A stretch of 64,000 bases of DNA. It comes from Microvelia longipes (lineage: Eukaryota > Arthropoda > Insecta > Hemiptera > Veliidae). The notes under the pieces were generated by a model. The model saw nothing but the letters and a program-made list of their open reading frames with translations, did no database searches and was not told where the DNA came from. Where the stretch lies: positions 32,992,775 through 33,056,774 of the forward strand of contig JACMZG010001913.1 of NCBI GenBank assembly GCA_018340805.1. Reading direction: 5' to 3'. The translations under genes and the position numbers were made by a program. Positions 1,755-63,649 of the stretch are shown here, in pieces; position 1 is the stretch's first letter, and each line of letters begins with the position of its first letter.

Positions 1755-1778
1755 ATCCTCCCCAGCCCTTTAAGGAGG
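1755..1778 (-). other. polypurine tract of copy 1
   Basis: On the minus strand the purine-rich run GGGCTGGGGAGGAT directly precedes the 3' LTR, the position expected for the plus-strand primer of reverse transcription. The same tract precedes the LTRs ending at 6490 and 11,259 (one base shorter there), but not those at 15,997 and 18,674. Confidence 0.75.
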
Positions 1779-2654: not shown

Positions 2655-2662
2655 TGCCTTCT

Positions 2663-6262: not shown

Positions 6263-6316
6263 TTTGTTAAGTGTATAAAATAAAATTTAAATCACAACTC
6301 ACTGACTTCCAGTTTT

Positions 6317-6333
6317 CCTTGTCCTCGTCGCCA
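6317..6333 (-). other. primer-binding site of copy 1
   Basis: Two bases inside the 5' LTR the minus strand reads TGGCGACGAGGACAAGG. A TGG start at this position is the hallmark of a tRNA primer site. Which tRNA is used cannot be settled here. The same sequence follows the LTRs at 15,840 and 18,520. Confidence 0.75.
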
Positions 6334-6335
6334 TT

Positions 6336-6490
6336 TGATATAACTTAACTTAAATTAGAAGGAAAGGCATTCATAACAATCGTTTGGTTTTATTCCATCA
6401 ACAAGAATAATTAGAAAACTTATCCTATTCAATAAACTGACATCTCGTTGCTAAGCAACAACACAACATAAACTAATTAAAGATATATCA
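6336..6490 (-). repeat. LTR 2 (5' LTR of copy 1, 3' LTR of copy 2)
   Basis: 155 bp with the same sequence as LTR 1. It is shared by two adjacent internal regions, the structure expected from recombination between LTRs or from an assembly repeat. The palindrome GTTGCTAAGCAAC lies at 6447-6459. Confidence 0.92.
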
Positions 6491-6505
6491 ATCCTCCCCA
6501 GCCCT

Positions 6506-7384: not shown

Positions 7385-7392
7385 TGCCTTCT

Positions 7393-9453: not shown

Positions 9454-9924
9454 TCAAGCAGTTGCCTTCAGATGCGCATCTATAGGCGGTCCCACCAATG
9501 TGCCGGCTGTTTCACTAAAGATATCTTCATATTGTTTAAGCAGCTTGTTAAGTTCGTGTTTATTTTGCTTATTTACAACTTGTGCCGATTCTAACTCAGA
9601 AATATCGTGCATTTTAAACAAACTTTGAAAAGAAAGTGGATCTGCAAAGTGTACTATCCAGTCCCGCCCGAAGATACAATCAGCATCGAAATCGACAACA
9701 TATAGATCTAAAGATTTAGTTCTGCCCTTAAAAGTTACTTCAACAGTGGCGAACCCTAAACATTTGAATTTATTTTTGGTGAAACTAGCAAAAGTTCGCT
9801 TAGAAGGTGAGAGCCTTTGGCGGGGCAGCAATTTCTCGAATATATTTCTGCCTATAATTGAACAGGCTCCGCCAGTGTCTAGTTCCATTTTTAACGGCCT
9901 ATTGTTAATTAAGACGTCAATCAT
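9454..9924 (-). pseudogene. gypsy copy 2: protease region ending in a nonsense codon
   Basis: Carries the aspartic protease LDTGG motif and its downstream IFGRDW loop. It ends at TGA (9454-9456), where copies 1, 3 and 4 have an arginine codon CGA, a single C-to-T type change. The frame is open upstream of 9924 into the gag zinc-knuckle region. Confidence 0.85.
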
Positions 9925-10202
9925 CGCTCTCGGGTTACGCAGTAACTTTGTAGCATTAATTAAATTCTCATAACATTGTATATGAGCATAACTTTCAGAA
10001 TCCGTATCACTCTCCGTAGTTTCAGTTTCTTGGACTGCGTGACTCTTTCGTTTAGACGACTCCTTGCGGCAGACGCTAGCTACATGACCCTTAATTTTAC
10101 ACTTTGAGCAAAAACTGTCTCTATGGGGACAATCCTTGCGCCAATGCTGTCCCCCACAGCTGAAACACGCACCCCGGGATGCGGAAGAATTGGTAGAATT
10201 AT

Positions 10203-10934
10203 TTATTTTTTTTTTCTAAAACTAGTACTGTTATCTTTTGATTTACTTTTAATTTTTCTCTCTGAACTAAATTTAAATTGGGTACTATCATTTTTTGTAG
10301 GACTAAATTTAACGAGTGAAGCAGCCTCCCGTGTAGCTTCCACTTCTGAAGCTATTAGGACAGCATCCTCGAATTTCTCGGGTTTTTTCGCTATTATTTC
10401 ATCGCGAATTTCATCACGCAGTACCCCGTGCAGCAATTGAACTATTAACGAATAATCTAAAAAAGTTTTGAACTCACAGTAACGCGCCCCTGCCTTTAAT
10501 TGGGACACGAATTCATGAAGCGGCTGATTAGGCAATTGAACAATATTTCGGAATTTAATCGCTTCGCTATATTTGTTTTTAGTTTTAATCAAATGATTAG
10601 TAAGCAATTGTTTTATGCTAGCAAACTCAAGACTATTACAATCATTCGGGTAAGCTAGATTTCTTAGCGTATTGTTTAAATCTGGCCCCATATGTACTCT
10701 CAGATGCGATGCCCATTCACTGACATCAATTTTGCAAAGCTTGAGCTGTAATTCTATTCTTTCAAAATAATCTTCAAGTGTTTCATTTGAATTACTATTA
10801 TAAGCTTCGAAGCTGAAGCGTGCATTAGAAGAAGTATGGCTAACAGTAGAAGTATTAGCCATAGAATGGCTAGAAGTATTTGCCACATTAGAAATCTGTA
10901 TTTCAGCAAGCATCGAAACTATCGCTGTCAGTTT
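10203..10934 (-). pseudogene. gypsy copy 2: gag fragment next to the gap
   Basis: Matches gag of the other copies from about residue 20 to the lysine-rich stretch before the zinc knuckles. There a one-base loss in a T run (near 10,207-10,217) shifts the frame. The start codon falls inside the N gap. Confidence 0.85.
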
Positions 10935-11157
10935 NNNNNNNNNNNNNNNNNNNNNNNNNNNNNNNNNNNNNNNNNNNNNNNNNNNNNNNNNNNNNNNNNN
11001 NNNNNNNNNNNNNNNNNNNNNNNNNNNNNNNNNNNNNNNNNNNNNNNNNNNNNNNNNNNNNNNNNNNNNNNNNNNNNNNNNNNNNNNNNNNNNNNNNNNN
11101 NNNNNNNNNNNNNNNNNNNNNNNNNNNNNNNNNNNNNNNNNNNNNNNNNNNNNNNNN
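10935..11157. other. assembly gap (223 N)
   Basis: Unresolved bases. By alignment with copy 1 about 179 bp would be expected here (gag start, leader, primer-binding site and the first part of the LTR). The gap length may be an estimate. Confidence 0.99.
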
Positions 11158-11259
11158 TGGTTTCCATCAACAAGAATAATTAGAAAACTTATCCTATTCA
11201 ATAAACTGACATCTCGTTGCTAAGCAACAACACAACATAAACTAATTAAAGATATATCA
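11158..11259 (-). repeat. LTR 3 (partial, right part after the gap)
   Basis: The last ~100 bp of the 155-bp LTR, ending TATATCA. It lacks four bases (TATT) present in the other LTRs close to the gap edge. The palindrome GTTGCTAAGCAAC is at 11,216-11,228. Confidence 0.9.
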
Positions 11260-11413
11260 ATCCTCCCAGCCCTTTAAGGAGGAGTGTACGGTCTGCGCCG
11301 CTTCCTTATACGATGACTCCTCCGAAGGGGCATTGCTGCTTGCTCTGGCCTCATTCTAATAGGAGTAACGCCTGGAGCCATCGCTGGTTGTACTGGTGCA
11401 GCTTCCGGCAATA

Positions 11414-13171
11414 CTATGGCGGCCTCTGCTGGAGGAACTGGTCGGGTGGTGTAGGTGGTGGTGTAGGCTGGTCAGCTGGTGGAGTAGGTTGTGGTGTAGG
11501 CTGGTCAGCTGGTGGAGTAGGTGGTGGTGTAGGCTGGACAGCTGGACCCAATGGTGGTAGGACTGGTGCAGCTGGACCCCATTGTGGTAAAATTGGGGCA
11601 GCTGAAACTACTGGTGTTGGGACTGGCATGACTGGAACTGAGGATGTTTGGCTAGAGGTATGAGTATCTATAGGCTTGGTGGATCGCTCTTGTTGAGTAG
11701 CACTGTAATAGGGGGTAGTACTGTAATACCTTGCGCGATATTTCGGCTTCTCTGCTTGTTGTGTAATAGAGGGCCGAGCACATGAGAACGGTCGGAGTTG
11801 ATCTATATGCCTCTTGTGTATTTTACCGTCGCGTTCCACAACGAACATGACGTTTCCAAGGCAATGTTTTATTTTACCTTGTAGCCACTTTTCTTCCAGA
11901 GCGCTGTAAGAGCGAAACTGCACTAGGTCTCCTTCATCGAAGGACCTTCGTTTAGCTTCGGGATTCGAAAAAGTCTTTCTTTTTCTTGAATCTGGTATCT
12001 CTGGAATTACTAGGTCGAGTCGACTCTTAAGGATTCGCCCCAAAAACAATAAGGAAGGTGGTTCCCCCGTGGTCTGATGGGGAGCCTTGTGATATTGTAG
12101 TAAGAAGGAATCAACAGCCTCTTCTAGATCTCTGGTTTGCGCGCCTTCTTTCAGCAATGCCTTCTTTATAGACTGAACATAGCGTTCCGCTTGCCCATTA
12201 CTAGACGGGTGGTAGGGGGGTGTTCTCCTATGGCACCGCACTCCTTGGGTCTTAAGAAATGTTTGAAATTCATCAGCAGTAAATTGTGGTCCGTTATCTG
12301 AAACGACCACTGAGGGAACACCGTAAGTACAGAAAATTTTTCTCAGACTCTTACAAGTAGCTTCAGCCGTAATGGAAGTCATTATTTTTACTTGAGTCCA
12401 CTTAGAGTAGGCATCAACGATAATTAGTAGGTATTTATTGTTTTTCAGAGGTCCAGCGAAATCAAGATGGATGCGTTCCCAAGGTGCACTAGGGTATTCC
12501 CAATGATGATCTTTATTTTTCGCTGGCATTGTAGCATGTTTTAAACACTCAGAACATGTTTTGGCGATCCGCTCGATATCTCTATCGATGTTTGGCCAAT
12601 ACACAAGAGATCTAGCTAAACCTTTCATTTTTGTAATGCCGATGTGGGCAACATGGAGCTCTTTAAGAATCATTTCATGGAACTTTTTTGGAATTACAAC
12701 CCGATGACCTAACATTAAGCATCCGCATGCTTGGGAGAAATCTAACGTCCTACCGGAGTATCCTAGAGCTTTTAAATCCTCCCCATTTTGCAAGGCAGAC
12801 AGTATGGGTGCTAGCACGGGGTCTTTTGTAGTTTCTTTAGAAATTCGTTCTGAATTTACCGGTAATTGGGAAATTTGCATTTGCACGAAAGAATCGAATT
12901 CCTCTGAAATGGAATGATAACTATAAGATTTTAGAGAGTCTGATTCTTCAGAAGACTTTAATGGGGCTCGGGAAAGGTAATCCGCATTTAAATTTTGGGT
13001 CGACTTTTTATGTTTAATCTCGTAACTGAAATTAGTTAAATAACTAGCGTAATTTGCACATCGGGAAAGGGTAAACTTTGGTAAGGCTGTATTTGGCGCA
13101 AAAATATGATAAATAGGTTTATTATCGGTGACAATAGTAAATTTCCTCCCATATACGTATTGAAAGAATTT
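11414..13171 (-). pseudogene. gypsy copy 3: end of RNase H, complete integrase, start of tail
   Basis: This frame is open from just downstream of the RNase H nonsense codon. It includes the HHCC finger, the complete D-D-E catalytic set (HLDFAG, SDNGPQF, NGQAERY), the GPY/F-like module and most of the proline-rich tail. A one-base deletion in a G run near 11,444 then diverts the last residues and removes the basic C-terminus found in copies 1 and 2. Confidence 0.88.
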
Positions 13172-15766
13172 TTAAACCCCCCAAACAATACTTAAAGCTT
13201 CGCGATCGATCTGAGGGTACTTCTTCTCGGTTTCACTTAAAGCTTTGCTGGCATAGGCAATCGGTCTTTCGACTCCATCTGGCATGATATGCGACAAGAC
13301 CGCTCCTAACCCTATAGGACTGGCATCTACGGCCAGAATGAGAGGTAGTTTAGGGTTATAAGGCGTTAACACCCGATTTGATGCTAGTTCTTCCTTAAGT
13401 ATTTTTAGGCTTTCGAGACCTTTCTTAGTCCATTGAAACTTTGAATTCTTAAGTATGTCCCTTAAAGGAGCTGTAATCGCAGATAAGTTAGGAATAAAGC
13501 TGTGATAGTAGGTAACTTTCCCTAAAAAGGACCTTAGTTCATCAAAAGTATTGGGTTTAGGAGCATTGAGTATTGCAGTAACATGCTTGTCTAGTTTATG
13601 AATCCCCGTCTTATCAATTCGATGTCCTAAGTATTCAACGCTGTCTAAAAGAAAAGCACATTTGGATTTCCTTAACTTTAATCCTGAAGCACGGATTCTT
13701 TCAAAGACTAACTTTAAAGTACTTAACATATGCTCCGGAGATGATGCATATACTAAGAAATCGTCGAAGAAATTCTTAACGTTTTTGATACCTTCAAAAA
13801 TATTATTGGTGCGCCTATGCCATATGGCAGGAATACTGGCTACACCGTACTGAGCTCGTTTTGGCCGAATGAGACCATGAGTAGGCGTATTCAACGTCAT
13901 GACCTCACTGAACTCCTCACTGCATGGTAAGCTCATGTACGCATCCGTAATATCGATTTTACAAAATATTTTAGCGTCTCGGACTTCACTGAATATCTCT
14001 TCTACCCTGGGTATAGGGTATTCATCTATGATAATCTGTGGGTTTAAAGTGGATTTATAATCTCCCGTGATTCTAATCTTCTCTCCCTTAACGACCACAT
14101 GAGTCGGTGAAGCCCACTGAGAATGCGCGACTTTTTCATAAAATCCAGACTGCAGTTTCTTTTCTATTTCCGAGGAGTAAGTTTTAAGCAAAGCAAACGG
14201 AATTGGTCGCGCTTTAGCGAATACTGGTCGAGCAGTTGCCTTCAGATGCACATCTATAGGCGGTCCCACCAATGTGCCGGCTGTTTCACTAAAGATATCT
14301 TCATATTGTTTAAGCAGCTTGTTAAGTTCGTGTTTATTTTGCTTATTTACAACTTGTGCCGATTCTAACTCAGAAATATCGTGCATTTTAAACAAACTTT
14401 GAAAAGAAAGTAGATCTGCAAAGTGTACTATCCAGTCCCGCCCGAAGATACAATCAGCATCGAAATCGACAACATATAGATCTAAAGATTTAGTTCTGCC
14501 CTTAAAAGTTACTTCAACAGTGGCGAACCCTAAACATTTGAATTTATTTTTGGTGAAACTAGCAAAAGTACGCTTAGAAGGTGAGAGCCTTTGGCGGGGC
14601 AGCAATTTCTCGAATATATTTCTGCCTATAATTGAACAGGCTCCGCCAGTGTCTAGTTCCATTTTTAACGGCCTATTGTTAATTAAGACGTCAATCATCG
14701 CTCTCGGGTTACGCAGTAACTTTGTAGCATTAATTGAATTCTCATAACATTGTATATGAGCATAACTTTCAGAATCCGTATCACTCTCCGTAGTTTCAGT
14801 TTCTTGGACTGCGTGACTCTTTCGTTTAGACGACTCCTTGCGGCAGACGCTAGCTACATGACCCTTAATTTTACACTTTGAGCAAAAACTGTCTCTATTG
14901 GGACAATCCTTGCGCCAATGCTGTCCCCCACAGCTGAAACACGCACCCCGGGATGCGGAAGAATTGGTAGAATTATTTATTATTTTTTTTCTAAAACTAG
15001 TACTGTTATCTTTTGATTTACTTTTCATTTTTCTCTCTGAACTAAATTTAAATTGGGTACTATCATTTTTTGTAGGACTAAATTTAACGAGTGAAGCAGC
15101 CTCCCGTGTAGCTTCCACTTCTGAAGCTATTAGGACAGCATCCTCGAATTTCTCGGGTTTTTTCGCTATTATTTCATCGCGAATTTCATCACGCAGTACC
15201 CCGTGCAGCAATTGAACTATTAACGAATAATCTAAAAAAGTTTTGAACTCACAGTAACGCGCCCCTGCCTTTAATTGGGACACGAATTCATGAAGCGGCT
15301 GATTAGGCAATTGAACAATATTTCGGAATTTAATCGCTTCGCTATATTTGTTTTTAGTTTTAATCAAATGATTAGTAAGCAATTGTTTTATGCTAGCAAA
15401 CTCAAGACTATTACAATCATTCGGGTAAGCTAGATTTCTTAGCGTATTGTTTAAATCTGGCCCCATATGTACTCTCAGATGCGATGCCCATTCACTGACA
15501 TCAATTTTGCAAAGCTTGAGCTGTAATTCTATTCTTTCAAAATAATCTTCAAGTGTTTCATTTGAATTACTATTATAAGCTTCGAAGCTGAAGCGTGCAT
15601 TAGAAGAAGTATGGCTAACAGTAGAAGTATTAGCCATAGAATGGCTAGAAGTATTTGCCACATTAGAAATCTGTATTTCAGCAAGCATCGAAACTATCGC
15701 TGTCAGTTTATCAAGTTTTTCATTCAAAGCATCATTAGAAATATTAGATTGGCCTTCAGTGTCCAT
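13172..15766 (-). pseudogene. gypsy copy 3: gag-PR-RT ending in RNase H nonsense codon
   Basis: 864 codons starting at the same ATG as copy 1. It covers gag, both zinc knuckles, protease, the whole RT and the beginning of RNase H. It stops at TAA (13,172-13,174), where the other copies have a lysine codon AAA within an A run. The lesion is beside a homopolymer, so a sequencing error is possible. Confidence 0.9.
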
Positions 15767-15839
15767 TTTGTTAAGTGTATAAAATAAAATTTAAATCACA
15801 ACTCACTGACTTCCAGTTTTCCTTGTCCTCGTCGCCATT

Positions 15840-15997
15840 TGATATAACTTAACTTAAATTAGAAGGAAAGGCATTCATAACAATCGTTTGGTTTTATTCC
15901 ATCAACAAGAATAATTAGAAAACTTATCCTATTCAATAAACTGACATCTCGTTGCTAAGCAACAACAACACAACATAAACTAATTAAAGATATATCA
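15840..15997 (-). repeat. LTR 4 (5' LTR of copy 3)
   Basis: 158 bp, the 155-bp LTR with one extra AAC in the AACAACACA run. It ends TATATCA and the palindrome is at 15,951-15,963. On the right it is followed not by the usual purine tract but by the chimeric segment 15,998-16,338. Confidence 0.9.
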
Positions 15998-16338
15998 AAT
16001 CTTGCTACTAGCTTAATACTAAGGAGGAGTAGCAGCTCCTGGTCAGCTGGACATGGTAGGCTGGTCAATACTGGTCAAACTATGTTTGGATTTGTATACT
16101 TGGTTACTGTCTAAGAGTAGTTCTCTAAAAAAAAAATAAACATATGAGATAATCCCTCTGATGAAAGCCCTTTATACGACTGTAATAAAAACGAGATTAA
16201 AAATATTTCTAGATAAAATAAATAAACAATGGTTATCAAATACAGAAGGAAGTAAGTACTAGAAAAGCCTCATTACAATTTTCTTTAGTTTGAGGAATCA
16301 AATTGAATAAACACTCACTCTTATTTGATGTCAACTAG
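15998..16338. other. chimeric low-quality segment between LTR 4 and truncated copy 4
   Basis: The first ~80 bp resemble scrambled pieces of the element's 3' end (AAGGAGGAGT, GGTCAGCTGGAC, GGTAGGCTGGTCA). The next ~250 bp are an indel-rich third version of the host flank seen at 1,200-1,430 and 18,710-18,950 (for example CAATGGTTATCAAATACAGA). It then switches abruptly to the middle of RT at about 16,339. Such a mixture is more like a misassembled or poorly polished long-read junction than a natural sequence. Confidence 0.6.
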
Positions 16339-18446
16339 AATTTGGATTTCCTTAACTTTAATCCTGAAGCACGGATTCTTTCAAAGACTAACTTTAAAGT
16401 ACTTAACATATGCTCCGGAGATGATGCATATACTAAGAAATCGTCGAAGAAATTCTTAACGTTTTTGATACCTTCAAAAATATTATTGGTGCGCCTATGC
16501 CATATGGCAGGAATACTGGCTACACCGTACTGAGCTCGTTTTGGCCGAATGAGACCATGAGTAGGCGTATTCAACGTCATGACCTCACTGAACTCCTCAC
16601 TGCATGGTAAGCTCATGTACGCATCCGTAATATCGATTTTACAAAATATTTTAGCGTCTCGGACTTCACTGAATATCTCTTCTACCCTGGGTATAGGGTA
16701 TTCATCTATGATAATCTGTGGGTTTAAAGTGGATTTATAATCTCCCGTGATTCTAATCTTCTCTCCCTTAACGACCACATGAGTCGGTGAAGCCCACTGA
16801 GAATGCGCGACTTTTTCATAAAATCCAGACTGCAGTTTCTTTTCTATTTCCGAGGAGTAAGTTTTAAGCAAAGCAAACGGAATTGGTCGCGCTTTAGCGA
16901 ATACTGGTCGAGCAGTTGCCTTCAGATGCACATCTATAGGCGGTCCCACCAATGTGCCGGCTGTTTCACTAAAGATATCTTCATATTGTTTAAGCAGCTT
17001 GTTAAGTTCGTGTTTATTTTGCTTATTTACAACTTGTGCCGATTCTAACTCAGAAATATCGTGCATTTTAAACAAACTTTGAAAAGAAAGTAGATCTGCA
17101 AAGTGTACTATCCAGTCCCGCCCGAAGATACAATCAGCATCGAAATCGACAACATATAGATCTAAAGATTTAGTTCTGCCCTTAAAAGTTACTTCAACAG
17201 TGGCGAACCCTAAACATTTGAATTTATTTTTGGTGAAACTAGCAAAAGTACGCTTAGAAGGTGAGAGCCTTTGGCGGGGCAGCAATTTCTCGAATATATT
17301 TCTGCCTATAATTGAACAGGCTCCGCCAGTGTCTAGTTCCATTTTTAACGGCCTATTGTTAATTAAGACGTCAATCATCGCTCTCGGGTTACGCAGTAAC
17401 TTTGTAGCATTAATTGAATTCTCATAACATTGTATATGAGCATAACTTTCAGAATCCGTATCACTCTCCGTAGTTTCAGTTTCTTGGACTGCGTGACTCT
17501 TTCGTTTAGACGACTCCTTGCGGCAGACGCTAGCTACATGACCCTTAATTTTACACTTTGAGCAAAAACTGTCTCTATTGGGACAATCCTTGCGCCAATG
17601 CTGTCCCCCACAGCTGAAACACGCACCCCGGGATGCGGAAGAATTGGTAGAATTATTTATTATTTTTTTTCTAAAACTAGTACTGTTATCTTTTGATTTA
17701 CTTTTCATTTTTCTCTCTGAACTAAATTTAAATTGGGTACTATCATTTTTTGTAGGACTAAATTTAACGAGTGAAGCAGCCTCCCGTGTAGCTTCCACTT
17801 CTGAAGCTATTAGGACAGCATCCTCGAATTTCTCGGGTTTTTTCGCTATTATTTCATCGCGAATTTCATCACGCAGTACCCCGTGCAGCAATTGAACTAT
17901 TAACGAATAATCTAAAAAAGTTTTGAACTCACAGTAACGCGCCCCTGCCTTTAATTGGGACACGAATTCATGAAGCGGCTGATTAGGCAATTGAACAATA
18001 TTTCGGAATTTAATCGCTTCGCTATATTTGTTTTTAGTTTTAATCAAATGATTAGTAAGCAATTGTTTTATGCTAGCAAACTCAAGACTATTACAATCAT
18101 TCGGGTAAGCTAGATTTCTTAGCGTATTGTTTAAATCTGGCCCCATATGTACTCTCAGATGCGATGCCCATTCACTGACATCAATTTTGCAAAGCTTGAG
18201 CTGTAATTCTATTCTTTCAAAATAATCTTCAAGTGTTTCATTTGAATTACTATTATAAGCTTCGAAGCTGAAGCGTGCATTAGAAGAAGTATGGCTAACA
18301 GTAGAAGTATTAGCCATAGAATGGCTAGAAGTATTTGCCACATTAGAAATCTGTATTTCAGCAAGCATCGAAACTATCGCTGTCAGTTTATCAAGTTTTT
18401 CATTCAAAGCATCATTAGAAATATTAGATTGGCCTTCAGTGTCCAT
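16335..18446 (-). pseudogene. gypsy copy 4: gag-PR-partial RT (3'-truncated)
   Basis: The first ~702 codons are the same as copies 1 and 3: gag, two zinc knuckles, protease and RT past the FFDD site. The element sequence then stops at about 16,339 and joins the chimeric segment. The RT thumb, RNase H, integrase and 3' LTR of this copy are missing. Confidence 0.9.
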
Positions 18447-18674
18447 TTTGTTAAGTGTATAAAATAAAATTTAAATCACAACTCACTGACTTCCAGTTTT
18501 CCTTGTCCTCGTCGCCATTTGATATAACTTAACTTAAATTAGAAGGAAAGGCATTCATAACAATCGTTTGGTTTTATTCCATCAACAAGAATAATTAGAA
18601 AACTTATCCTATTCAATAAACTGACATCTCGTTGCTAAGCAACAACACAACATAAACTAATTAAAGATATATCA
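16339..18674 (-). mobile_element. Ty3/gypsy retrotransposon, copy 4 (truncated)
   Basis: 5' LTR (18,520-18,674), leader and primer-binding site, then gag-protease-RT cut off in mid RT. Its sequence is practically that of copy 3, so the truncation is very recent or created by assembly. Confidence 0.9.
18520..18674 (-). repeat. LTR 5 (5' LTR of copy 4)
   Basis: 155 bp, same as LTR 1 and LTR 2, palindrome at 18,631-18,643. The bases to its right lead within ~25 bp into flank copy B. No target-site duplication matching the left side of LTR 1 is visible. Confidence 0.92.
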
Positions 18675-19550: not shown

Positions 19551-36862
<17,312 letters not shown>

Positions 36863-50995: not shown

Positions 50996-51066
50996 TTACT
51001 TAAAAGTAGCAAACTGTTGGAAATTTTGAGATGCGATGCCTTGATTAAGACCTCCCATCATAAAGC
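50996..51066 (-). CDS. lqfR: EpsinR terminal exon
   Basis: Acceptor TTTACAG; 22 codons then TAA. Encodes FMMGGLNQGIASQNFQQFAT and FK at the end, comparable with the FANFANFSK end of CLINT1. Confidence 0.88.
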
Positions 51067-54000
51067 CTGTAAACAAAATGGAAAAGAAGTGTTTGATCAA
51101 ATACACAGTGTACCAAATACAGTGTTTATTCAAATTCCAAAAAGTAGTCATATAAAACCACTAAAAATAGGGTAAATGTTTTTTTTTTTGTTTTTTTTTA
51201 TAATAAATTCTTTATTAAATAAATTACAAATTTACAAAATAATATAAAGATAAGCTGCTCATGATGGCCCAAGAGCCTGTTTAATTTTTACTTTTCCTCA
51301 TTTATACCAAAAGTAAATAGGAAAAGTATTGTGTTTGCAAAGAAATATGAAACCAGGATTACAGGTGTTTTTAAGACCTCCTGAGAGGTTTTCATAGAGT
51401 TGTTTGTCTGAATGTGTGAATGTTTCTGATATCATTTTTGACAGTCTAACTTTTTTCTGGGTATCCTTAAACATGTCAAACAGATTCTTAAAATAAAATT
51501 TTAACTATTTAAACGTCTTATATATTTTTTGTTTATTTATTTACCCTAAAGGCAGCCACTTCAGATGGCTTGAAATAAAACTTGAGCTGCTCTTTTAAAC
51601 CCATTTACCAATAGTTCCTATACCCTCCAACAAAAAAATATAAATAAAATAAACAAGTCTCGCCACTGATGTTATAATTTAATGACAGAGTCAGCTTTCA
51701 GACTTAACAGGCCGTCATCAGTGCCTAACCAACAAAGTATAAAATTCAATAGACTAAAGAGACAAATAAAAAATGACAAGATAAACCAACAGAACTATGT
51801 CAATGATGGTTTAACTATGCATTTTTTTCATTTATCTTTTTAGTCTAATGAATACTTTTTTTTGTAAGATTGTAATATATACTTTGTTAGTTAGGCACCG
51901 ATGATGGTCTATAAGCTGAATCTGTCATTAAATTATAACATCAGTGGAGAGACTTGTTTCTTATTTTTCCTTATATTTACACTCCACAGCTCTACTTTTC
52001 TAGTATTTGATTATGGTAAAGCTAAGTTAGTTCAGGGTCAATCCATTTCAAGTGATCCAGAGATGTTGCTCGAAAAAAATAAAAATTGATAATTTTTTTT
52101 TCTGTGTTGGTCCTACCCATTGGTAGTCCAAAACGCCTAGTATTAATTTTTTCTACAGCCTCCTTCATTTTCAAAAATCACGAGTAGATTAGCAGCAGTA
52201 GAACAAAAATTATTGGTTTCGATATAAAGCCCAAAGAGGGCACTTTCAAACGAGACCTGTTTCATTAAGCTAGGTTAAGCCAAAGCCGAAAAATTAAGCC
52301 TAAAAAATTGGCGAAAAAACTCAAAATTTAGGTGTCTCGGGAACTAAAAAGTGATTTTTGAAAATGAAGGAGGCTGTAGAAAAAATTAATACTAGGCGTT
52401 TTGGACTACCTATGGGTAGGACCAACACAGAAAAAAAAATTATCAATTTTTATTTTTATCGAGCAACATCTCTGGATCACTTGAAATGGATTGACCCTTC
52501 AGTTAACCTAATAGGATGGCTGTCTACCCAATACCTAGACCTGAGCTGGTTACCTGCAAGCATCAATATCTCTTATAGATAAATGCAACTTATAACTACT
52601 AACTTATACTGCTAACTGGTAGCTCAGAATAAGAATCTGAAGAAAAAATAAATTAAGAATCTGAGCTCAAAGATAAAAATATACAATTTAGATAGCCCCA
52701 TGTACTTTGACAAACACAAAAAAAAAGATTTACCTGGATTAGAGTGAGTGGGTGAATTAGAAGCCAGCTGATTCATGGTAGGTTTATTAGTTTTATTCTG
52801 ATTCTTTGCGTTTCCGCTTAAACTAAGTGAATCTAAATCTATATTTAAATTACTCCACGTGCTGCCAACCTGGTAAAAAAATAAACTCTATAGAGAGAGC
52901 ATGAGAATAGAATCCAGTACCAACATAGGAAATCTAAAGTACACTAGTGGCCCTAATTTGGTTAAAAGAGATGCTAACAAGCAAAATGCAACATTGGTGT
53001 CCTAGTATAAATGTTTTTGAAAATTATAAAATAAAGTTGATAATTGTCTAGATGACTTATCACAAAATTTTAATTTTCTTTTTTTTTTTGACTTACTGTC
53101 AAAGTATTTCCTTTCCTTTATTCTGTCCCTTAACTTAGTCTGTGGGGGGGGAGGGTGTAATTATATGAGGAGAATAATACGAAAAAAGGTCAGGAGTCAG
53201 CAGTTAAAGTTTTGCCTAGAGTTTTGTAGCTGACAGCTACAAACCTTGGTGAATTCTAAAAGTTATGTCTTTCAGAGCAGGTGATTAAATAATCACCAAA
53301 ATTTTGAGAAAGCACTGGTGAATCCTAGAAGTCATCTCACATCAGTATATCACCATAACATATATATCTCAACAAATATTGACACATACAACCAAAAGTA
53401 AATATTCTTTGCAATGCTCGAACCTCATGTGAGGTCCACTACCTTAAGTCCAAAAAGTTGTACGGTACAACCAGGGTACAACTCTTAACTCACAAAGAAA
53501 AGGGAAAAATTGATGGGGGGGGAATCTTTTTAAATAACTTAAATTATCTTTTGAACTATTTTACTACTTTATTTATTGCTAAACCGAAAAATTGACTAAG
53601 ATATTATAAGCTCTGAACACAATTCATATAATATTAAGTTGACAAAATATCACAAACATACCTGCTGTTGTGGAGTATTAGTTGGTTTAATATTAGCAGT
53701 CTGTAGAGGTTGGTTGGGTTTCATAGGTTCTAAAACTCCTCCTAATGACATACCTGCGACACAAACATTAAACATAACAACAATCAGCATGAACCATCAC
53801 ATCGGACCTCTATCTGTCTCCTGTATTGCTAAAACACTTCCTTTTTTACCAAAGAAATCTGTGAGCTAATGTCTTTCAAATGTATTCACCCAGTTTAATA
53901 AATTATTTAATGTGGACAAAATTACATTTTTATTCTGATGCATTCTTCTTTTTTTTGGGGCTCTGATGATATGATAATTGATAAATAAATTATTATCTTA

Positions 54001-57000
54001 TTCATATAGTTATTTGCTTATTTTATCTATTTATCTAAGCAGAACCATAGATATTCCATTCACAAACGATGACTGAAAGTGGCATAGTTTGAGCAAAGAT
54101 GGTCAAACAACACCAAGCAGTTGCATAGTAGGAGCCACTGATGGTCAAGCAATATCTAGAAGTTGCATAGGAGGGGCCACAGATGGACAACCAAGTTATT
54201 TCTAAGCAATAGTGTGTATTTTCAGATTTATTAGTGGATATGCTCATATACTGTCACATTGATAGATTGACATCTATTTGCTTACATGAAATAATCACAA
54301 AGCTTTTACCTTATGTATTTACAACATATATTAGAGTAAAACATACAAATAATTGTTTAAACACAAATTTATTTTTAAAATACAAAAATTAAAAACCAAA
54401 TACAAAAATTTAAACATTTTTGATGAAGTTTCAAACAAAAAATAATGCTTACTTAAAAAAATTATAATCTAAATTAAATTAATAGCCAAACAATTTCATG
54501 TTAAATGAGGTACATATAGTTCAAATAAAAGCACTATACTTCCATTATGGTCAGAGTAAATGAAATAACTTATTTTTATACATTAATTTGTACTTCTTTG
54601 TTATTAGACTTAGATATTATTTATAATTTTTATGCTGTTATTTATATTATGATATATGTTTGCTTTTAAAATAATAAAGTAATGAGTTATAATTATTTAT
54701 AAATTACTAAAATTATAAAAAAAAACATTATTTTATAATAAAAATAATTTATTTTCAAAGCATGGACTAAAATTATGTTACTGATTATAAAATTGTTTCT
54801 TAAGAAATTTTATTAGTTTGTTTTCAAAATTGTACTTAACAGAATAGGACGAAAGAATAAAAAGTCTCTCTACAGTTATAGATTTTATTAAAAGTAAAGC
54901 AGAGCGCTTTCGACCTAACAAGAGGTCATCATCAGTGCCTATTTAACAAATAGCCTATTAAATATATTTTGTTTAATAGGCACTGATGATGACCTCTTGT
55001 TAGGTCGAAAGCGATCTGCTTTACTTTTAATAAAATCTATAACTGTGGAGAGACTTTTTATTCTTTTGTTCTATTACGATGGACTCCATTTATGCTCATT
55101 CTCAAACATTTGTACTTAACAGTTTTGAAAAACTTGAAAATATTAATGAGAAAGGAGAAAGTACTTCCCTTCTAAGAGCTTTTATTACACCAGTAAAAGG
55201 GATCTTAGAAGGGTTAGACAACTCATTGGTGTAAAATAAAAATAAATGAGTTTATAACAACTTATAACCTTTATCTTAAGCATGGGGTACCTCTGAACTT
55301 TTCCTCATCAAATCGGATTCGCTTCGCTGATCCTCCCTACTTCAGACTCACTTCTCTCATCCTCCGAATATAAAAGTCATTAAATTTATACTATAATATA
55401 TCTACGGACTCGCTTTGCTTGTCCTAACATAGTTAATACATCCGTTTCATTCCCAGCGGTCACTCATCCAGGCACTGACGAAGCTCGATACTGCTTAGCT
55501 ATTATTATCTAACAAAAATCATGAATATACTTATCATAATGAAACAAAACTCAGTGCACTTATTTATAACGTGAAGGTGTACACTTGTACTGAATTTCAA
55601 CTCAATTGGATTATTCAGTGTTTAATGAATTAATGCTGAGTCAATGATGGTTAAAGACATAATAGAAAAAATATTTTCTGTACAGCACATTAACATTGAT
55701 CCAATAACTATTTTTGTACCAAGTTTCAGCTTTCTAGCATAAACACAATGGGTGCTACAATGATACACAGACACACAGATTCAGAACATTTCAAAGACAT
55801 CTGAAACGGATGATTCAGGTGAAATTTGGGATTTTAAGTGCAAAAACAATACATTTCCGACATACCTACAGTATAAATAAGAAAAAATGTAGCACACTTA
55901 TTTTACCTAAATAAAAAACTAAATTTTGAATGAACTAGGAATTATGAAAATAGTTTGTATTTAAAAAAACGTTCTAGAAATTAAAAACTGATTCATCCTG
56001 TACAAGAACTGATAATGTTTTATTAATCAAGCACAGAACTTGTTTAGCAAACAAATTTACTTCACTGTCATGATGATGACAGCTCAAAACATAAAGCCAT
56101 TCTTTATTCTCTAACATGCTGTCGAAAAAATCCGACATTAATCTACTAGCAGGAACGGACAAAATAACGGAAGCTACACAGGAAATAACGCACAGAGTTA
56201 CTTGAGGATCGGGGTGGTATCTAACAGAGTATATCGCTTCTAGAACTTCGCTTGCCATGCGTGAAACAACTGAACAGTTTTCAGAACAAGTCATAACAAC
56301 AGCTACTGTCCGCAAGAGTTCGATTAGTAAAATTGTAAAATCAGACACATCGTTAGTCAAAAAAACTTCATTTTCGCGACTCATTTTTAAAGGAGAAGTA
56401 TTAGATCCGCCTCTCAGCAAAGGAAATAGAAAAGAACCAGCAACTTTGCTAAATTCATTCAGTCTCAAAGTAGGTAATTTGGTTTTTGAAGTCAATTTTC
56501 TTGTTTTACCTACTATTTTAACTTTGATTTCATTGATTACAGGGTTATTAATTTCTTTACCTTTCGATAACTTTTGAGCCGACGTCGATAAGATTTGCAA
56601 AATAAATAATCTACAAGCTATATTATGTGAGCTAACATCACGATGGAATTCAGAACATAAAAATTCCGCAGATTCCTTCGGATAAACACAAACGACTGCG
56701 ACTGAAGCATTGAATTTCAAATCGTCAAAATTCTCGCAGTAAAATTCCTGCTGTAATGATATTAAAACAGATAAAATTTCTAAACCTAACGAAACATCAT
56801 CGTCAGGTAAATCATTTAAAATCAAATTTTCAGCCACTTCTAAACTTCCCAACCAAACGTTAGCCTTTTCACGCTCACCGAACCCTTCAAGCAAATCCCG
56901 TAAATACTTTGGTTTCTCTAATTCTTTACTCTCGATATCATTAGAAGTATCGTAAGGTTCAAAATCATCATCACTATCCAACTCTTCCATGATTTGTCTT

Positions 57001-60000
57001 TCTTTATTTTCAATAATCGTCTCATTATTTGAAGTTGGTTCAGTGATTTCAACACTCAAACCTACATTAAATCTACCATTAACCATAATTTTTTCTAATA
57101 AAATATCACCACTAACAAACTCATAATCAATTTTATCATCTTTGTACATATTTTTAACACTATCAACTATCTCTAACAAATCTTTGGTCAGACCAGTATA
57201 ATCAAACTTTAAAGTATCAGTTCCATCTATAGACTGAATCAAACACTCGGCCGTAGACATTCCGATAACTCTAATGCCCGGAGTGTTAGACTCCAAATGC
57301 GCACTCACCCCGTCAGTCAAAAATGTTTTCAAATCATTACCTATTTTATTTTTCAATTTCTTACTCAACTTAACAATGATCTTACTCAAAAACAAATGTT
57401 GCTCAAAAGGCGTATTTTTAATAGATACTCGACTTCCCCAAACTTTGATCAAATCTAAAATAACGCTTTTATTAATATCATCATTTTCAAAACAGTTCAT
57501 CAAACCTTTTATAACTTCATCATCTAAAGTATAAGTAAATAATAACAACTTTTTACTCAAAACATACTTAAAAGTTTCATTTTTAACACACAAATCATTA
57601 ATAACATTATTCAAAGAGAATTTTGCATTTTTAGCCACGCTAACACAAACCTTTTCAATAACTTTCACATCAAATTTATCAAAAATTTGAAATAAAATTG
57701 CATCGAAACCGTCCCTCTCGTGACACCAAGCATCTAACACAGTGATGAACGTATCGGCCGATTTGTAACTTCCATAATTTATAAACATTTTTTCAAAAAA
57801 TTTACTCACCAAGTCTAAATTGATATCTGAGTAAATTTTAGCGTTATTTAAAATAGCAATAATTTTGGCTAACTGAGCAAAAATCAGTTGCGAAAACTCA
57901 TCAGGGGTCAAATCAGGCAAATTAGTTTTTAAAACATTTGACACTTTAGATGGAATTGACATTAAATTTCGACAAAATTTACTAATGTCATTTTCATCTA
58001 ATTTCATAATTAAAGCACCGTTAATTACTCCGGAAATAAAACAATCCGACTTTAACAACGAAATAATCAAATTTACAACAATATCAAACTTTTTACACCT
58101 ACTTGATGAATCAACAAAATTGATCAATGTAACTAAAGAATGATTCAACATTTTAAAACTACCACTTTCAACACAATAAAGTCCTTTTAAATCCTTTTCG
58201 GAAAACATTTTAAAATTTAGAATTTTCTCCAAAATCCTTGGGTATATAATTTCTTCAAATTTTTCTGGAAATGTCCAATCATCTGCTCTAATTATCCGTG
58301 CTTCAGTGAGAGGTAAGTTGATCCTTTCGATCAATCTTCTTAAATTTACGTTGCTTTCGTCTTGTTGTTCTAAAATTTGAATTCCAATTCGTTCTGTTTC
58401 AGAGTCGCCAGCTGGAAATCACCGGAAAAACAAAAATGTCCTAACGCTCTAATTATTAGTAAAAATAATAAGAACAAGAAGAACATTAAAGGCAACACTC
58501 ACAAATACACCAATAAGTTGTTTTAAAAGTGCAGAAAAAATAAAGAAAATAGATATATGGATAGCACTATCATATTTAAAACATTATGATAATACACTTC
58601 AAATACTTATTAAGTCCAAATAAATAAAATTAAATTAAAAACTTAGGATTTAAAAGAAAAAAAATCATGTAAGATTAACATTTTTATAAGGGCTGTATAA
58701 AAATTAATAACCTATAGTAATGCACATGTTTATAATCAGTTGACAGCGTGGAAAAATAACGTGAGGGAGCCAATGAGGTTAGTCCTGAATGTTAAACCAT
58801 GCCCACAATTAGTACTTCATAAATAAGAAGCCATGGCTACTCTATGGCATCAGTGCTGAGACATGGTGGTGTAAAAGTTAAATAGGGGTCCAAAAGTAAT
58901 ATTTTTCATACTTCAGCTGTAAAAAGCATTTTTTATTGTCTTCGCAATGAAGTCATACTTTACTGACAATTATTGGTTGAGAAACAGTGTGTCTTCTCTT
59001 TTTTTTAATGCTGTTAAAATTTGATAAGATAAACGAAAAAATGAACTGAAAAATGAATGAAAAGAAAAAATGTACCCAATGATTATAACAAAAATATCCA
59101 CGATAATACTAACTTACCACTAGATACTAAATTGTCTTCTAGAGGATTGAAAGAGAAATTAGAGTTGGGCTGGGGTTGGTTTAGATTACTAGGCAGGGCT
59201 GGAGTACTGAATCCACTAAGACCCAGGAGTAGATCAGTGTTAGTTCCTCCTTCAACAAAACACAACCAGTTTAAGAGCCTGATTTTAAAAGGAATCTCAT
59301 AACATTTGTAAACTCTGTTGGAGTGATAGATAGATATCTCAGATAGATAGATATGCAGTATCACACACATAGACCTTAGACAATAATTAAGAATACAAAA
59401 ATTAGTGTTTCACAACATAACCTTAGACAATAAGATTAAAGAATACAAAAATTAGTGAACCAGTTTGCACCCGGGGGGGAAAATTAAAACCCAGGGCAAA
59501 ACCCACCCTATTTACCCGGGTTTTTACTGGTTTATATTTTTTATTCATTAATTTAGTTTTTATAATAAAGCTTGTTGTTTGGGAAATTAGCTAAAAATAA
59601 TAAAATAATTATAAAAAGTATAATTAGGTTATTCTTGCATCTGTTCTATGCATGTAAAATAATCAAGGCATTGGTAAATATATGAATGCTCTTTATTTTT
59701 ATTAAACTTTATTGTCATATTTTTTTTTTATTTATTCGTGGTATTTTTTTTTATGAAGAATCTGTAATGCATTGAAGTTGCTTTGTGACTGTTATTTTTT
59801 AACTGTTATATATACAAGAGAGAAGTATAGGTATTTATTAATTAAGAATGGGGATTTTTTTAGTTAAACTATCGATTAAAACTTAAAATTTCTGAAATAA
59901 TATTATCTTTGCTTACAAAAAATCTTAATTTAACTAAAACTATGTTCAATAAATGTATTAATTATGTATTACGCCTATTTATCAACTAGATTCTTAAAAT

Positions 60001-63000
60001 AGGCTTAAAAATACGATTATTTAACTCGCAATTTAAAAAAAAAATATGAAAACCCATTTTACCCATTAAACCCAAAAAAACCCGGGTGGGCTGGGTTTTT
60101 ACAATTAAACCCGGGTTTTTGCCAACCCTGGTCTGAACACTCCTATACCCAGCTTGGGCTTTTGAATAATCAATAATTTAGTGTTGCAAAAAATTAATGA
60201 TTCAAAAATAGTACCTGTGTTGTTTCCGTTTGAGACAGGCTGAACAGAACCTGGTGGTGGTATAAGTGATGTTATATTCTGACCTAGAGCTGAGGGGGGC
60301 TGGGGTAGACTAGTGGGACCACTAGAAAACAGGTTAGTTTGTGGAGCACTAGTAGGACCACTAAACACACTGGGTTGTGGTGGTAAGCTAGTCGGAGCAC
60401 CGCTTGAGAACGCTGAACTGAAATCTGCAAACTCATCCTTACTGTCAGATCTAACAAATCAAAAATAACATGCTCGTAAATAACATTTTACAGTTAAAGA
60501 ATGTAAAAACCATTCTTCTTTTTCTTCTTCACACAGCTTGTTATAACAATTCTAAAGATCACAATACATATGGGGATCTGAACATTCAATAGTAAAAGAC
60601 CCTTTTGGAGGGTGAAGCCAGTAAAAAATGTTCCTAGCCAAAAATATGGCATCAAATATACACTATTAACAAAACCTAGAAGTATCAAATAATATATGAT
60701 GTTCAAATATTTAAATTGTACCTTTAGATTGCAATTCTTTATTTAAAAGTAAGAATAACTTTTTATGGAGATTAACTATTTATCTACATAAAAAGTAAAA
60801 ATTCTTTCATGTTAAAATTAATAATTATAATTGATCAATTTAATTTTAATTCCAACTAGGAACACCCTATGCACATTCAATCATTGGGCAAGTTTAAAAG
60901 TCAGCTTTATTAAGTTTATATCATCAGCAGAAAATAAGTAATATTGTTTCTCCTCCCTAACTCCCTCATTTCTTATAAGAAACTCAGGTTCAGGTTGTTC
61001 TTACCTTACCTAGCACAAAGAACTGAACTATAGTTGTGCAACAAGTTTTAGAAAGATACTAGAAAAAAATCAGGTACAGGGTACCTTGGAATTTTTCCTC
61101 GCCACATAGAATTCGGTAAGCGCATCCTCCCTACTTCGGACTAGCTCCGCTTGTTATTAGAATTCTGAGGTCAAGTGCAGCAAGATTGAAGTAATACTAT
61201 CTAAAGCTTTGGATAATCATGACATTTCTAAAGGCGAGCAAAGCGAGTCAAATTCTGAGGTACTCTGGACCCAATTTTAACTTAATAAATCAATAATCAA
61301 TTAATAAATGAAAATAATCCTTGTGGAATCATATTCATTCATGGAATCATGAATATTTTCCTTGTGGAAAATATTCTTTCTTCAATCTTTAAAGGAGATT
61401 GAAGAAATTTGCTGAATCATAAGCATTCTGCTAATTATTAAGTGTTTTCAATAGACTGACTACGTATTAAGTCTATAAAAAACATACTGTTCAGTGGACT
61501 GCGGAGCGGTGAAGGCATTGGTGAAATCACCAAAATCACCAGGCTGGTTGTCAAGTGATCTGGGATTAAATAGATCATCACTCAGCTCACCAGATGGTGA
61601 TGTGATGCCACTAGATCCACTGCTGGCTCCTCCCTAAACAAAAAAACAAATTGGTAAAATCGAGAACATGATAAGACACAATGTAAAACTCTCTACTAAG
61701 GAATTTTCAGGGGAAAAAGTATAAATTAAGAGTTGTAACTCGCAACACCTGTTGTAATAAAAAAGAAGAGACTTCATTAAAACACGATTGATGTTATCAT
61801 TCTTGAAATCAATTTCAGATCATATAGTAAAGATTATCAAACCTAAATATTCTCTATACTAATTATAATAATAATAATAATAATATATTTATTTGTCATA
61901 GACATACAGTCTTTACAAAGGGGGAGGAGTCCTTGTGGGACAATTACAAGTTTAGCAAAGTTATACTAATTATAAAAGACAAACAGTAGGGTTACCTGAG
62001 ATGAGAAAGCAGCGACAGCAGGTCCCAAGTCAACAGTCCTCCTGGGAGATTTAATTTTCTCACTAGATTTCTCTGATGTCCTATTTATAGTAGTAATATT
62101 TATATTGTTCTGTGTGGGAGAATCTAACTGGTTCTTGGTGGGCTCCTGCCTTGGGTCAGGATACGAGGTATCTCGATACTCTTTAGCTGATGAGTTCCGA
62201 ACACCAACATCTCCTTCACTATCCCCCTCATCACTGTCAATCAAACAGAATTATTGAATTATCATCCATTAACCTGAGTTGAAAATGTCAAAGAGTAAGT
62301 TACAACAAGGTCAAGTAAGAAAATCTTAGAAAAAGGGCACGTTTTATAAATATTCCCGCTATTTTGTGTTGAAACATAAGAATGGTTTTTCCATTAGAGC
62401 ACCCATTCTGTGGGACCCACAATGTCAAATAATATTAAATTAAATGTAATCATCAAGTACTTATAAATTTATAGAAAAAAGCGTTTTTTGAAACAGCGGC
62501 AAAACTTGCAATACCTTTTTCAAAACTTGAAAAATACCTCAAAACTAAAACTTAAGAAAAACACCTTAAAAACAAATAAGGCTTTATTTTTTTGAAAACA
62601 ATATCTTTTATTTTTATAAAAAAAATGCTCAAAAAAAGCATTTGAAATTCTTATTGTCTGACATTCCATTTTATTGATTAAAATTTAAAGTAAAAAGAAC
62701 AACAACAGATGGTATTTAGCTACCCTCTGTTCTCAAATTGATAAGTATGATGTAGCTGTAATTAGCTAGTGGCAGTAAAAGTTAAGAGCTTCTTGGGGTT
62801 AAATTTTAATCTAAAAGATTGAACTAAAGCTAATAAAGAGATAAAACTTTACATATATGTTGGAATGATATACGACTTGATGCACACGAAATCTCAAATC
62901 GATCGCCAAATTTTCCATGTTTTATAAATTTTTGCTGAGTCATTATTGCAGGTCAATGACGTTATATTTTTTTGTCCCAGATAGCACAACTAGACCTACA

Positions 63001-63649
63001 GATTGATATTATTAGTATTTGTCACCACTGCATACAATTTTAAATTTATATACAAAAAACCTTACCTTTATATTCCCTAGATTCATTGCACCCTGTGTTT
63101 CACCTGTTATTACACCTTGCGTCTCTGCACCAATTGGTTAGTAGACATGAGTATGCCTGGGGTCAGGCGAAATATAGTCATTTAAAGAAGTAAGAAGTTT
63201 TATTTTTTTTTTTATTTATTTTAAATACCTTTATTGAATAAATTACAAAAAATAAATAATTATATTCTAATATTAAGGTTACCTCTCTGCTAAAAGGCTT
63301 ACGCCTTGTGCTGCAGAGAGAAATTTCAGTCCCATCCAGTGTCTTTAAATAAATTAAAAACTACAGATTGATTTTTGTACCGAATTTCAACTCTCTAGCA
63401 TAGATACACTGGGGGATACAATGATAACAGACACAGACGCAACTTTATAAAAACCACTTAGGAGGTCTTAAAAACATCAAAACGTAATTCAGGAGAATTC
63501 CCAGGTCTGATTTTTTTTTCCAACACAATACTTTTCCAATACACATATGGTATAAATAAGAAAAAGTAAAAAGATGTACCTGTTGTCAAATTCATCTCTC
63601 CTGGTAGACCTGTCTTCTGCCCAGTCATTGTCTCCTCCCCACCTCTCGC
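50996..63649 (-). CDS. lqfR: EpsinR / clathrin interactor 1, 3' part (ENTH domain outside window)
   Basis: EpsinR is a clathrin and AP-1 adaptor that works at the trans-Golgi network and endosomes. Exons (minus strand, 5' to 3'): 63649-63580, 62233-61996, 61633-61488, 60450-60215, 59249-59118, 53753-53662, 52869-52734 and 51066-50996 (TAA at 50,998-50,996). All have GT-AG borders, and the phases (1-2-0-2-1-1-0-1) chain without conflict over 1,121 nt. Family landmarks after the ENTH domain: an acidic NSDEGDSEGD, the TVDLGPA motif (TIDLGAA in vertebrate CLINT1), gamma-ear type motifs DFGDF and EFADF, STWSNLNIDLDSLSL, and the C-terminus FATFK (FANFSK in CLINT1). The 5' exons lie beyond position 64,000. 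A Tel2 exon lies between exons 59118 and 53753. Confidence 0.93.
51190..51480 (+). mobile_element. dispersed repeat (head module) preceded by an AT-rich element end
   Basis: 51,190-51,287 has TTCTTTATTAAATAAATTAC and ends near GGCCCAAGAGCCTG. From 51,288 the sequence follows the head module of the 5S-like repeat: CTCATTTATACC, GGAAAAGTATTGTGTTTG, AACCAGGATTACAGG, TTTTTAAGACCTCCT. The 5S-like part is absent in this copy. Confidence 0.6.
51651..51967. repeat. foldback element, CATCATCAGTG family
   Basis: Arms start AAACAAGTCTCGCCACTGAT and end with the inverse ATCAGTGGAGAGACTTGTTT. Inside are CCGTCATCAGTGCCTAAC and its counterpart GTTAGGCACCGATGATGG. Arms ~95 bp, spacer ~125 bp. Confidence 0.85.
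52035..52497. repeat. foldback element with ~155-bp arms
   Basis: Left arm: GGGTCAATCCATTTCAAGTG, GATCCAGAGATGTTGCTCGA, GTCCTACCCATTGGTAG and GCCTCCTTCATTTTCAAAAA. The right arm is its inverse with only a few changes, ending at ATGGATTGACCC. The ~150-bp loop includes repeated AAGCC(A/T)AA motifs. A different family from the CATCATCAGTG foldbacks. Confidence 0.9.
52734..52869 (-). CDS. lqfR: EpsinR exon with STWSNLNIDLDSLSL
   Basis: Acceptor TTACCAG, donor GTAAAT, phase 0 in and phase 1 out. The motif corresponds to the STWSD...ISLDNLL segment of vertebrate CLINT1, so it identifies EpsinR specifically rather than other epsins. Confidence 0.9.
52870..53661 (-). other. EpsinR intron (792 bp)
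   Basis: AT-rich with a G run near 53,142-53,151. No element recognised. Confidence 0.6.
53662..53753 (-). CDS. lqfR: EpsinR exon downstream of Tel2
   Basis: Acceptor GTCGCAG, donor GTATGT, phase 1 in and phase 0 out. Encodes GMSLGGVLEPMKPNQPLQTA and a glutamine end, comparable with the MQPSKPQQP region of CLINT1. It is separated from the preceding EpsinR exon by the entire Tel2 exon. Confidence 0.85.
54847..55072. repeat. foldback element, CATCATCAGTG family (best-preserved)
   Basis: Arms ~100 bp: GAATAAAAAGTCTCTC, TTTTATTAAAAGTAAAGCAG, GCTTTCGACCTAACAAG and GAGGTCATCATCAGTGCCTA, then the nearly exact inverse. The spacer is ~20 bp, so the arms are almost a perfect palindrome. Confidence 0.9.
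55277..55905 (-). mobile_element. dispersed repeat with 5S-rRNA-like segment, copy 3
   Basis: On the minus strand: head from CTTATTTATACTGTAGG, then GTGTCTGTGTATCATTGTAG and TGCTAGAAAGCTGAAAC, middle AATTGAGTTGAAATTCAGTA, then a clear 5S-like stretch (55,500-55,447) CTAAGCAG..TCGAGC..GTCAGT..CTGGATGAGTGACCGCTGGG, then tail with GACAAGCAAAGCGAGTCC and GATCAGCGAAGCGAATCCGA. Same module order as copies 1 and 2. Confidence 0.72.
55974..58411 (-). CDS. Tel2: Tel2/TELO2 homologue, single large exon fused in frame to EpsinR
   Basis: TELO2 with TTI1 and TTI2 forms the TTT complex, which works with Hsp90/R2TP to mature PIKK kinases (mTOR, ATM, ATR, SMG1, TRRAP). The exon encodes 811 residues and a TAG stop, close to the family's ~840. 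Visible landmarks: helical-repeat N-terminal half; GIRVIGMSTAECL in the middle; the acidic CK2-type site LDSDDDFEPYD (56,961-56,978); PKYLRDLLEGF opening the Telomere_reg-2 domain (PF10193, exon residues about 498-615); KLPTLRLNEFSKVAGSFLFP and FPLLRG near the C-terminus. The acceptor TTTCCAG at 58,412 is in phase 1, matching the EpsinR exon ending at 59,118. There is no in-frame ATG before 58,208. An independent Tel2 transcript starting at that ATG or from an unseen first exon remains possible. Confidence 0.93.
56961..56978 (-). other. Tel2 CK2/PIH1-binding motif DSDDDF
   Basis: Codons for D-S-D-D-D-F, preceded by EEL. In vertebrate and yeast Tel2 the CK2-phosphorylated DSDD(D/E) site is bound by the PIH1D1 subunit of R2TP. 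Its presence argues that this Tel2 keeps the chaperone link. Confidence 0.75.
58412..59117 (-). other. intron between EpsinR exon and Tel2 exon (706 bp)
   Basis: AT-rich. No clear alternative first exon or promoter for Tel2 is visible. It is short compared with the 5.4-kb distance to the next EpsinR exon. Confidence 0.6.
59118..59249 (-). CDS. lqfR: EpsinR exon upstream of the Tel2 choice
   Basis: Acceptor GTTGAAG, donor GTAAGT, phase 1 at both ends. Encodes GGTNTDLLLGLSGFSTPALP and FNPLEDNLVSSG. From here the transcript can go to the Tel2 exon (58,411) or to the EpsinR exon (53,753). Both accept phase 1. Confidence 0.9.
59461..60130. mobile_element. hAT-like non-autonomous transposon
   Basis: The right end, read inward on the minus strand, is CAGGGTTGGCAAAAACCCGG, a typical hAT-type terminus. 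The left end (CAGTTTGCACCCGGGGGG) is a diverged inverted counterpart with further AACCC/GGGTT blocks on both sides. Flanking octamers TAGTGAAC and GTCTGAAC share their last five bases, compatible with a decayed 8-bp target duplication. The interior is AT-rich and non-coding. It lies in an EpsinR intron. Confidence 0.65.
60215..60450 (-). CDS. lqfR: EpsinR exon with EFADF motif and proline-rich stretch
   Basis: Donor GTACTA, phase 1 out. Encodes DEFADFSSAFSSG (motif at 60,420-60,437) and repeated VFSGPTSAP / LFSSGPTSLP units. Two in-frame acceptors 9 nt apart (after TTAG at 60,451 and after ACAG at 60,442) would include or omit three residues. Confidence 0.9.
60451..61487 (-). other. EpsinR intron with repeat tail
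   Basis: Contains, at about 61,075-61,260, fragments similar to the tail of the 5S-like repeat (GCGAGCAAAGCGAGTC, ATCCTCCCTACTTCGGACTA). Otherwise AT-rich. Confidence 0.55.
61488..61633 (-). CDS. lqfR: EpsinR exon with DFGDF ear-binding motif
   Basis: Acceptor GTTTAG, donor GTATGT, phase 0 in and phase 2 out. Encodes DDLFNPRSL and GDFGDFTNAF. DFGD-type sequences in EpsinR bind the gamma-ear of AP-1 and GGAs (known for the vertebrate protein). The motif codons are at 61,523-61,537. Confidence 0.9.
61634..61995 (-). other. EpsinR intron with (AAT)n and short element end
   Basis: An (AAT)n run at about 61,864-61,886 followed by TATATTTATTTGTCATAGAC and a GGGGGAGGAGTCC patch. This looks like a short retroelement end. 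No exon. Confidence 0.5.
61996..62233 (-). CDS. lqfR: EpsinR exon with TVDLG motif
   Basis: Acceptor TTGACAG, donor GTAACC, 238 nt, phase 2 in and phase 0 out. Starts with the acidic DEGDSEGD stretch and ends with RRTVDLGPAVAAFSSQ, the conserved DLG segment of EpsinR proteins. Confidence 0.9.
62234..63579 (-). other. EpsinR intron (1.35 kb)
   Basis: Contains an AT-rich element end (63,205-63,345) and a minus-strand head module of the dispersed repeat (63,355-63,572). A small exon-like stretch near 63,060-63,116 does not fit the reading frame and is not annotated. Confidence 0.65.
63205..63572 (-). mobile_element. dispersed repeat head module plus element end
   Basis: On the minus strand 63,572-63,355 reads CTTATTTATACCATATGTG, GGAAAAGTATTGTGTTGG, TTTTTAAGACCTCCTAAG, GTCTGTTATCATTGTATCCC and TGCTAGAGAGTTGAAATTCG, the best-preserved head module in the window. 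The adjoining 63,205-63,345 carries CTTTATTGAATAAATTAC and a GCAGAGAG hairpin-like patch, the same arrangement as at 51,190-51,480. Confidence 0.62.
63580..63649 (-). CDS. lqfR: EpsinR exon (post-ENTH acidic linker)
   Basis: Acceptor TGTTTAG, donor GTACAT. Encodes ERWGGDNDWAEDRSTRRDEF, the charged linker typical after the ENTH domain. It ends in phase 2 and joins 62,233 to create the DNSDEGDSE acidic run. Confidence 0.82.

Follow-up and report, generated by a model that had tools for sequence, protein, structure and literature searches.

A probable lqfR orthologue in Microvelia longipes, an EpsinR gene with a Tel2 exon

The Drosophila lqfR gene and the overall layout of the locus

The closest described counterpart of the locus analyzed here is the Drosophila gene lqfR (liquid facets-Related, lqfR/tel2). 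The gene consists of seven exons, with an RNA of 2.7 kb that comprises exons 1-5 and 7 and is predicted to encode a protein similar to the vertebrate CLINTs (PMC3197181). Exon 6, the Tel2 part, belongs to an alternatively spliced RNA of ~5 kb: on a Northern blot, an exon 6 probe detects the ~5-kb RNA only, and two protein bands are observed, both larger than predicted; the cDNA of the ~5-kb form could not be produced and sequenced (PMC3197181). The junction between exons 5 and 6 was obtained by RT-PCR, as cited by PMC3460857; the same publication gives sizes of 1,415 and 649 amino acids for the two proteins, which differ in their C-terminal exons, and reports that exon 6 alone gives rescue. 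The fusion is likely present in other insects as well as in every Drosophila species that was queried, and EpsinR and Tel2 are not fused in yeast, nematodes and vertebrates, according to a survey described there as not exhaustive, with data not shown (PMC3460857).

The stretch of DNA that we analyzed (64,000 nucleotides, hereinafter the window; C564:32992775-33056774) comes from a 665-Mb assembly of 1,470 contigs. We consider it very likely that the locus is a composite EpsinR-Tel2 gene, orthologous to lqfR, with alternative terminal exons. Under this model, ten shared coding exons would encode the ENTH domain and a linker that binds clathrin and AP-1; joining of the donor at 59118 to the nearby Tel2 exon, where the transcript would end, would yield an EpsinR-Tel2 fusion of 1,256 amino acids, and skipping of the Tel2 exon, with the same donor joined to the acceptor at 53753, would yield an EpsinR of 543 amino acids. 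The short product would thus be a Golgi trafficking adaptor, and the long product this adaptor joined to the checkpoint protein Tel2.

The order of the parts is that of lqfR, namely, shared 5' exons coding for ENTH, a single large Tel2 exon that ends the long form and, finally, the predicted coding sequence for the C-terminus of the short form. The sequence-only reading of this DNA had proposed alternative terminal exons for EpsinR and EpsinR-Tel2, which is still the best reading and matches Drosophila, but the contrast with Drosophila that it drew was wrong: exon 6 of lqfR is likewise nested, between exons 1-5 and 7, according to PMC3197181 and PMC3460857, so that the internal position of Tel2 no longer distinguishes this locus from its Drosophila counterpart.

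Thus, the layout is largely known already, from lqfR, and the locus is left as a probable orthologue whose tail is split further: three tail exons compared to one (exon 7) in Drosophila. Among the features compared, other dimensions differ as well: the long form, the short form and the part common to both comprise 1,256, 543 and 444 residues here versus 1,415, 649 and 492 in Drosophila, there are ten shared coding exons versus five shared exons, and the gene spans ~25.8 kb from the start codon to the short-form stop (by coordinate arithmetic) versus 7.7 kb. The two parts of the gene resemble vertebrate proteins, the ENTH domain being closest to Epsin 4/CLINT1 and the Tel2 exon matching human TELO2; unlike here, CLINT1 and TELO2 are separate genes in vertebrates (PMC3460857 and PMC3197181). 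With this locus, there would be one more genome in which a single insect gene encodes both a clathrin adaptor and an essential chaperone of checkpoint kinases.

EpsinR exons shared by the two predicted forms

Five of the ten shared coding exons lie in the window, on the minus strand between 63649 and 59118, with a continuous frame and GT-AG borders. The exon at 63580..63649, the sixth coding exon of the model, continues the frame of the ENTH exons; it is followed by the exons at 61996..62233 (phase 2 in, 0 out), 61488..61633 (phase 0 in, 2 out; contains PGDFGDF), 60215..60450 (phase 2 in, 1 out; contains DEFADF) and 59118..59249, the last shared exon, which contains DLLLGL and the acceptor of which could equally sit three bases further in, at 59246. 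The donor of this exon at 59118 reads GTATCTAGTG followed by gtaagt (GTG at the border), in phase 1, and is compatible in frame with either the Tel2 exon, at 58411, or the tail exon, at 53753. The exon coordinates and phases given by the sequence-only reading hold for this donor and for both acceptors, all three in phase 1.

Examination of 60 kb upstream, beyond the end of the window, for the missing 5' exons revealed the start codon and the ENTH exons within 13 kb, on the strand of the gene. The four ENTH exons are located at L002:3570-3491, 2300-2179, 1371-1229 and 623-490, and the coding part of the start exon (MWKVRELADKV) at L003:2912-2881, with a phase-2 donor, AAAGT followed by gtatgt, that fits the next exon, a join read by eye; these five exons beyond the window complete the shared set. 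The joined exons of the short form encode 543 residues, and the predicted long form consists of 1,245 residues plus 11 from exon 1. All coding exons other than Tel2 are 32 to 238 nt long.

In a Pfam search, the short form contains an ENTH domain at an E-value of 2.8e-45, with a weaker ANTH match at 7.5e-06. Its best relatives of solved structure are Epsin 4 (1xgw, 286 bits) and clathrin interactor 1 (2qy7, 257 bits), followed by an epsin at 153 bits; because the ENTH domain scores Epsin 4/CLINT1 far above epsin, the shared part is EpsinR rather than epsin. The matches to 1xgw and 2qy7 cover residues 1-163 only, and the linker and the three tail exons were assigned by frame, exon borders, motifs and a presumed resemblance to CLINT1, with PGDFGDF, DEFADF and DLLLGL taken by us to be AP-1 or clathrin motifs.

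The Tel2 exon and its probable dependence on EpsinR

The Tel2 exon (55974..58411, minus strand) is 2,438 nt long and consists of 811 codons and a split codon: the AG of the acceptor ends at 58412, the first exon base, in phase 1, is at 58411, and the stop codon ends at 55974. The 814-codon open frame cannot be attributed to chance, given a probability of ~10^-28.5 under independent bases with the local composition. The Pfam Telomere_reg-2 domain (PF10193) is recognized in this frame at an E-value of 6.3e-20, covering all 112 profile positions with a score of 72.1 bits (cut-off 23.6), and TELO2_ARM scores under its cut-off (25 versus 27 bits). The solved structure of human TELO2 (7f4u) matches the exon at 7e-46 in three stretches, residues 152-408, 478-619 and 634-801 of the query, with the first 151 residues unaligned; to this extent the matches cover the two-part alpha-solenoid expected of a full-length Tel2/TELO2 protein. 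An exon of this length with its own stop, as originally read, is borne out by the frame and by both matches. A single-sequence AlphaFold model of the exon was too poor for a fold check (mean pLDDT 43.6).

In the Tel2 exon, the open frame of 814 residues has its first in-frame ATG at residue 71. The TELO2 alignment runs at an offset of 8-9 (query residue 152 corresponds to chain residue 160, and 478 to 487), which, extrapolated over the 151 unaligned residues, places the start of the exon near TELO2 residue 11; by the same extrapolated offset, translation starting at residue 71 would drop ~70 residues of Tel2. The assembly contains one PF10193 match, at this locus (one candidate scored), compared with 0 in 14 control genomes, a count that misses any Tel2 copies that lack the 112-position domain or lie in unassembled sequence. 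A search for Tel2 relatives among prokaryote genome contigs yielded 18 pattern matches, 0 of which were confirmed, as expected. Given that no second Tel2 domain was found in the assembly and that the exon lacks a well-placed start codon, Tel2 probably relies here on EpsinR for both its promoter and its start codon, a prediction made from the genomic sequence.

The principal competing explanation, which we regard as improbable, is that one of the EpsinR introns harbors Tel2 as an independent gene, transcribed from a promoter of its own and supplied with a start codon by a small 5' exon, and that the phase match is a coincidence. Agreement of phase is by itself weak evidence, given that two junctions agree in about one of three cases by chance, and the upstream introns, such as intron 1 (~9.3 kb by exon coordinates), could hide a short first exon. 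Against such an arrangement, the 706-nt intron 59117-58412, the sole intron scanned, holds no convincing start mini-exon, and in Drosophila the exon 6 probe sees RNA of the fused size only (PMC3197181). The scan returned three candidates that lead from an ATG to a phase-1 GT; all three were rejected as weak, since no donor among them looks good by eye and the intron remaining after two of them would measure just ~11 and ~20 nt.

The two acceptors are alike in quality, with pyrimidines at 11 of 16 positions in the Tel2 acceptor and at 10 of 16 in the tail acceptor at 53753. Under the favored model, both junctions from the donor at 59118 would be used, with one promoter presumably serving both forms.

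That an assembly artefact placed the Tel2 exon inside an EpsinR intron is a negligible prospect: at least one run of N is present in the window, though ~40 kb away among repeats, and the exon has the same orientation and a matched phase, no N is seen in the gene stretches read, and the exon order is the same in Drosophila (PMC3197181).

The predicted short-form tail, the 3' ends and a possible origin of the Tel2 exon

The predicted tail of the short form comprises 99 residues encoded in three exons on the minus strand: 53662..53753 (phase 1 in, 0 out) and 52734..52869 (phase 0 in, 1 out), both with GT-AG borders and an open frame, and 50996..51066 (AG acceptor, phase 1 in), which ends in NFQQFATFK and a TAA stop. 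Pfam and PDB searches with the joined short form matched the ENTH region only, without a match of the tail exons to EpsinR; we infer from their position and frame that these three downstream exons constitute the EpsinR tail. Conceivably, they could instead be a relic or be rarely used, the gene making mainly the fusion, and the shortness of the tail together with its lack of recognition by Pfam or PDB would fit such a state. This appears very improbable to us, considering that all three exons retain their splice signals and frame, that an AATAAA, an ordinary poly(A) signal, is found at 50961, ~35 nt beyond the short-form stop, and that the short form accounts for the majority of the LqfR protein in Drosophila eye discs (PMC3460857).

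For the long form, a poly(A) site may be located after the Tel2 exon. The 2.2 kb between this exon and 53753 contain 13 poly(A) hexamers compared with an expectation of 8.6 (s.d. 2.9; order-1 Markov model, 500 resamples), that is, ~1.5 s.d. above expectation, a weak indication.

Two inverted repeats are found in the introns of this part of the gene. The repeat at 54843-55075, between the Tel2 and tail exons, has 108-nt arms that are 95% complementary and 17 nt apart, resembles a foldback mobile element and encompasses 4 of the 13 hexamers of that intron. The repeat at 52034-52498, in the last EpsinR intron, has 148-nt arms that are 99% complementary and 169 nt apart.

With respect to the origin of the Tel2 exon, we tentatively put forward a scenario that we deem possible but rather unlikely, in which a retrocopy of Tel2 inserted in the sense direction into an EpsinR intron and, once deprived of its start codon, came to serve as an alternative last exon by capture and then replaced the original Tel2 gene. 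The proposal is worth raising because the Tel2 exon is intronless within a finely divided gene, lacks a start codon and has no other Tel2 match in the assembly. Literature searches on the fusion, on other insects and on a retrogene origin yielded PMC3197181, PMC3460857 and PMC4910058 (C. elegans RSD-3), and no publication on a retrocopy origin was found. If the scenario is true, the locus would cleanly illustrate how an essential gene can be supplanted by a captured copy of itself, and the exon would have been retained for long because of shared control or a real physical link between Golgi sorting and PIKK maturation.

An Rfam search of the window returned nothing at gathering scores. Elsewhere in the window, an open frame at 26377-26727, with runs of YIYI and HTHT, looks like simple-repeat DNA in translation rather than a gene. 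The plus strand carries at 31151-31519 an exon for B55, a regulatory subunit of PP2A, which matches solved B alpha chains at 2.4e-65. The region 1770-18470 contains several copies or pieces of one gag-pol retroelement, all on the minus strand and alike by eye, with a run of N among these repeats near 10.8-11.1 kb; the one retroelement frame that was scanned encodes RVT_1, RNase H and integrase domains.
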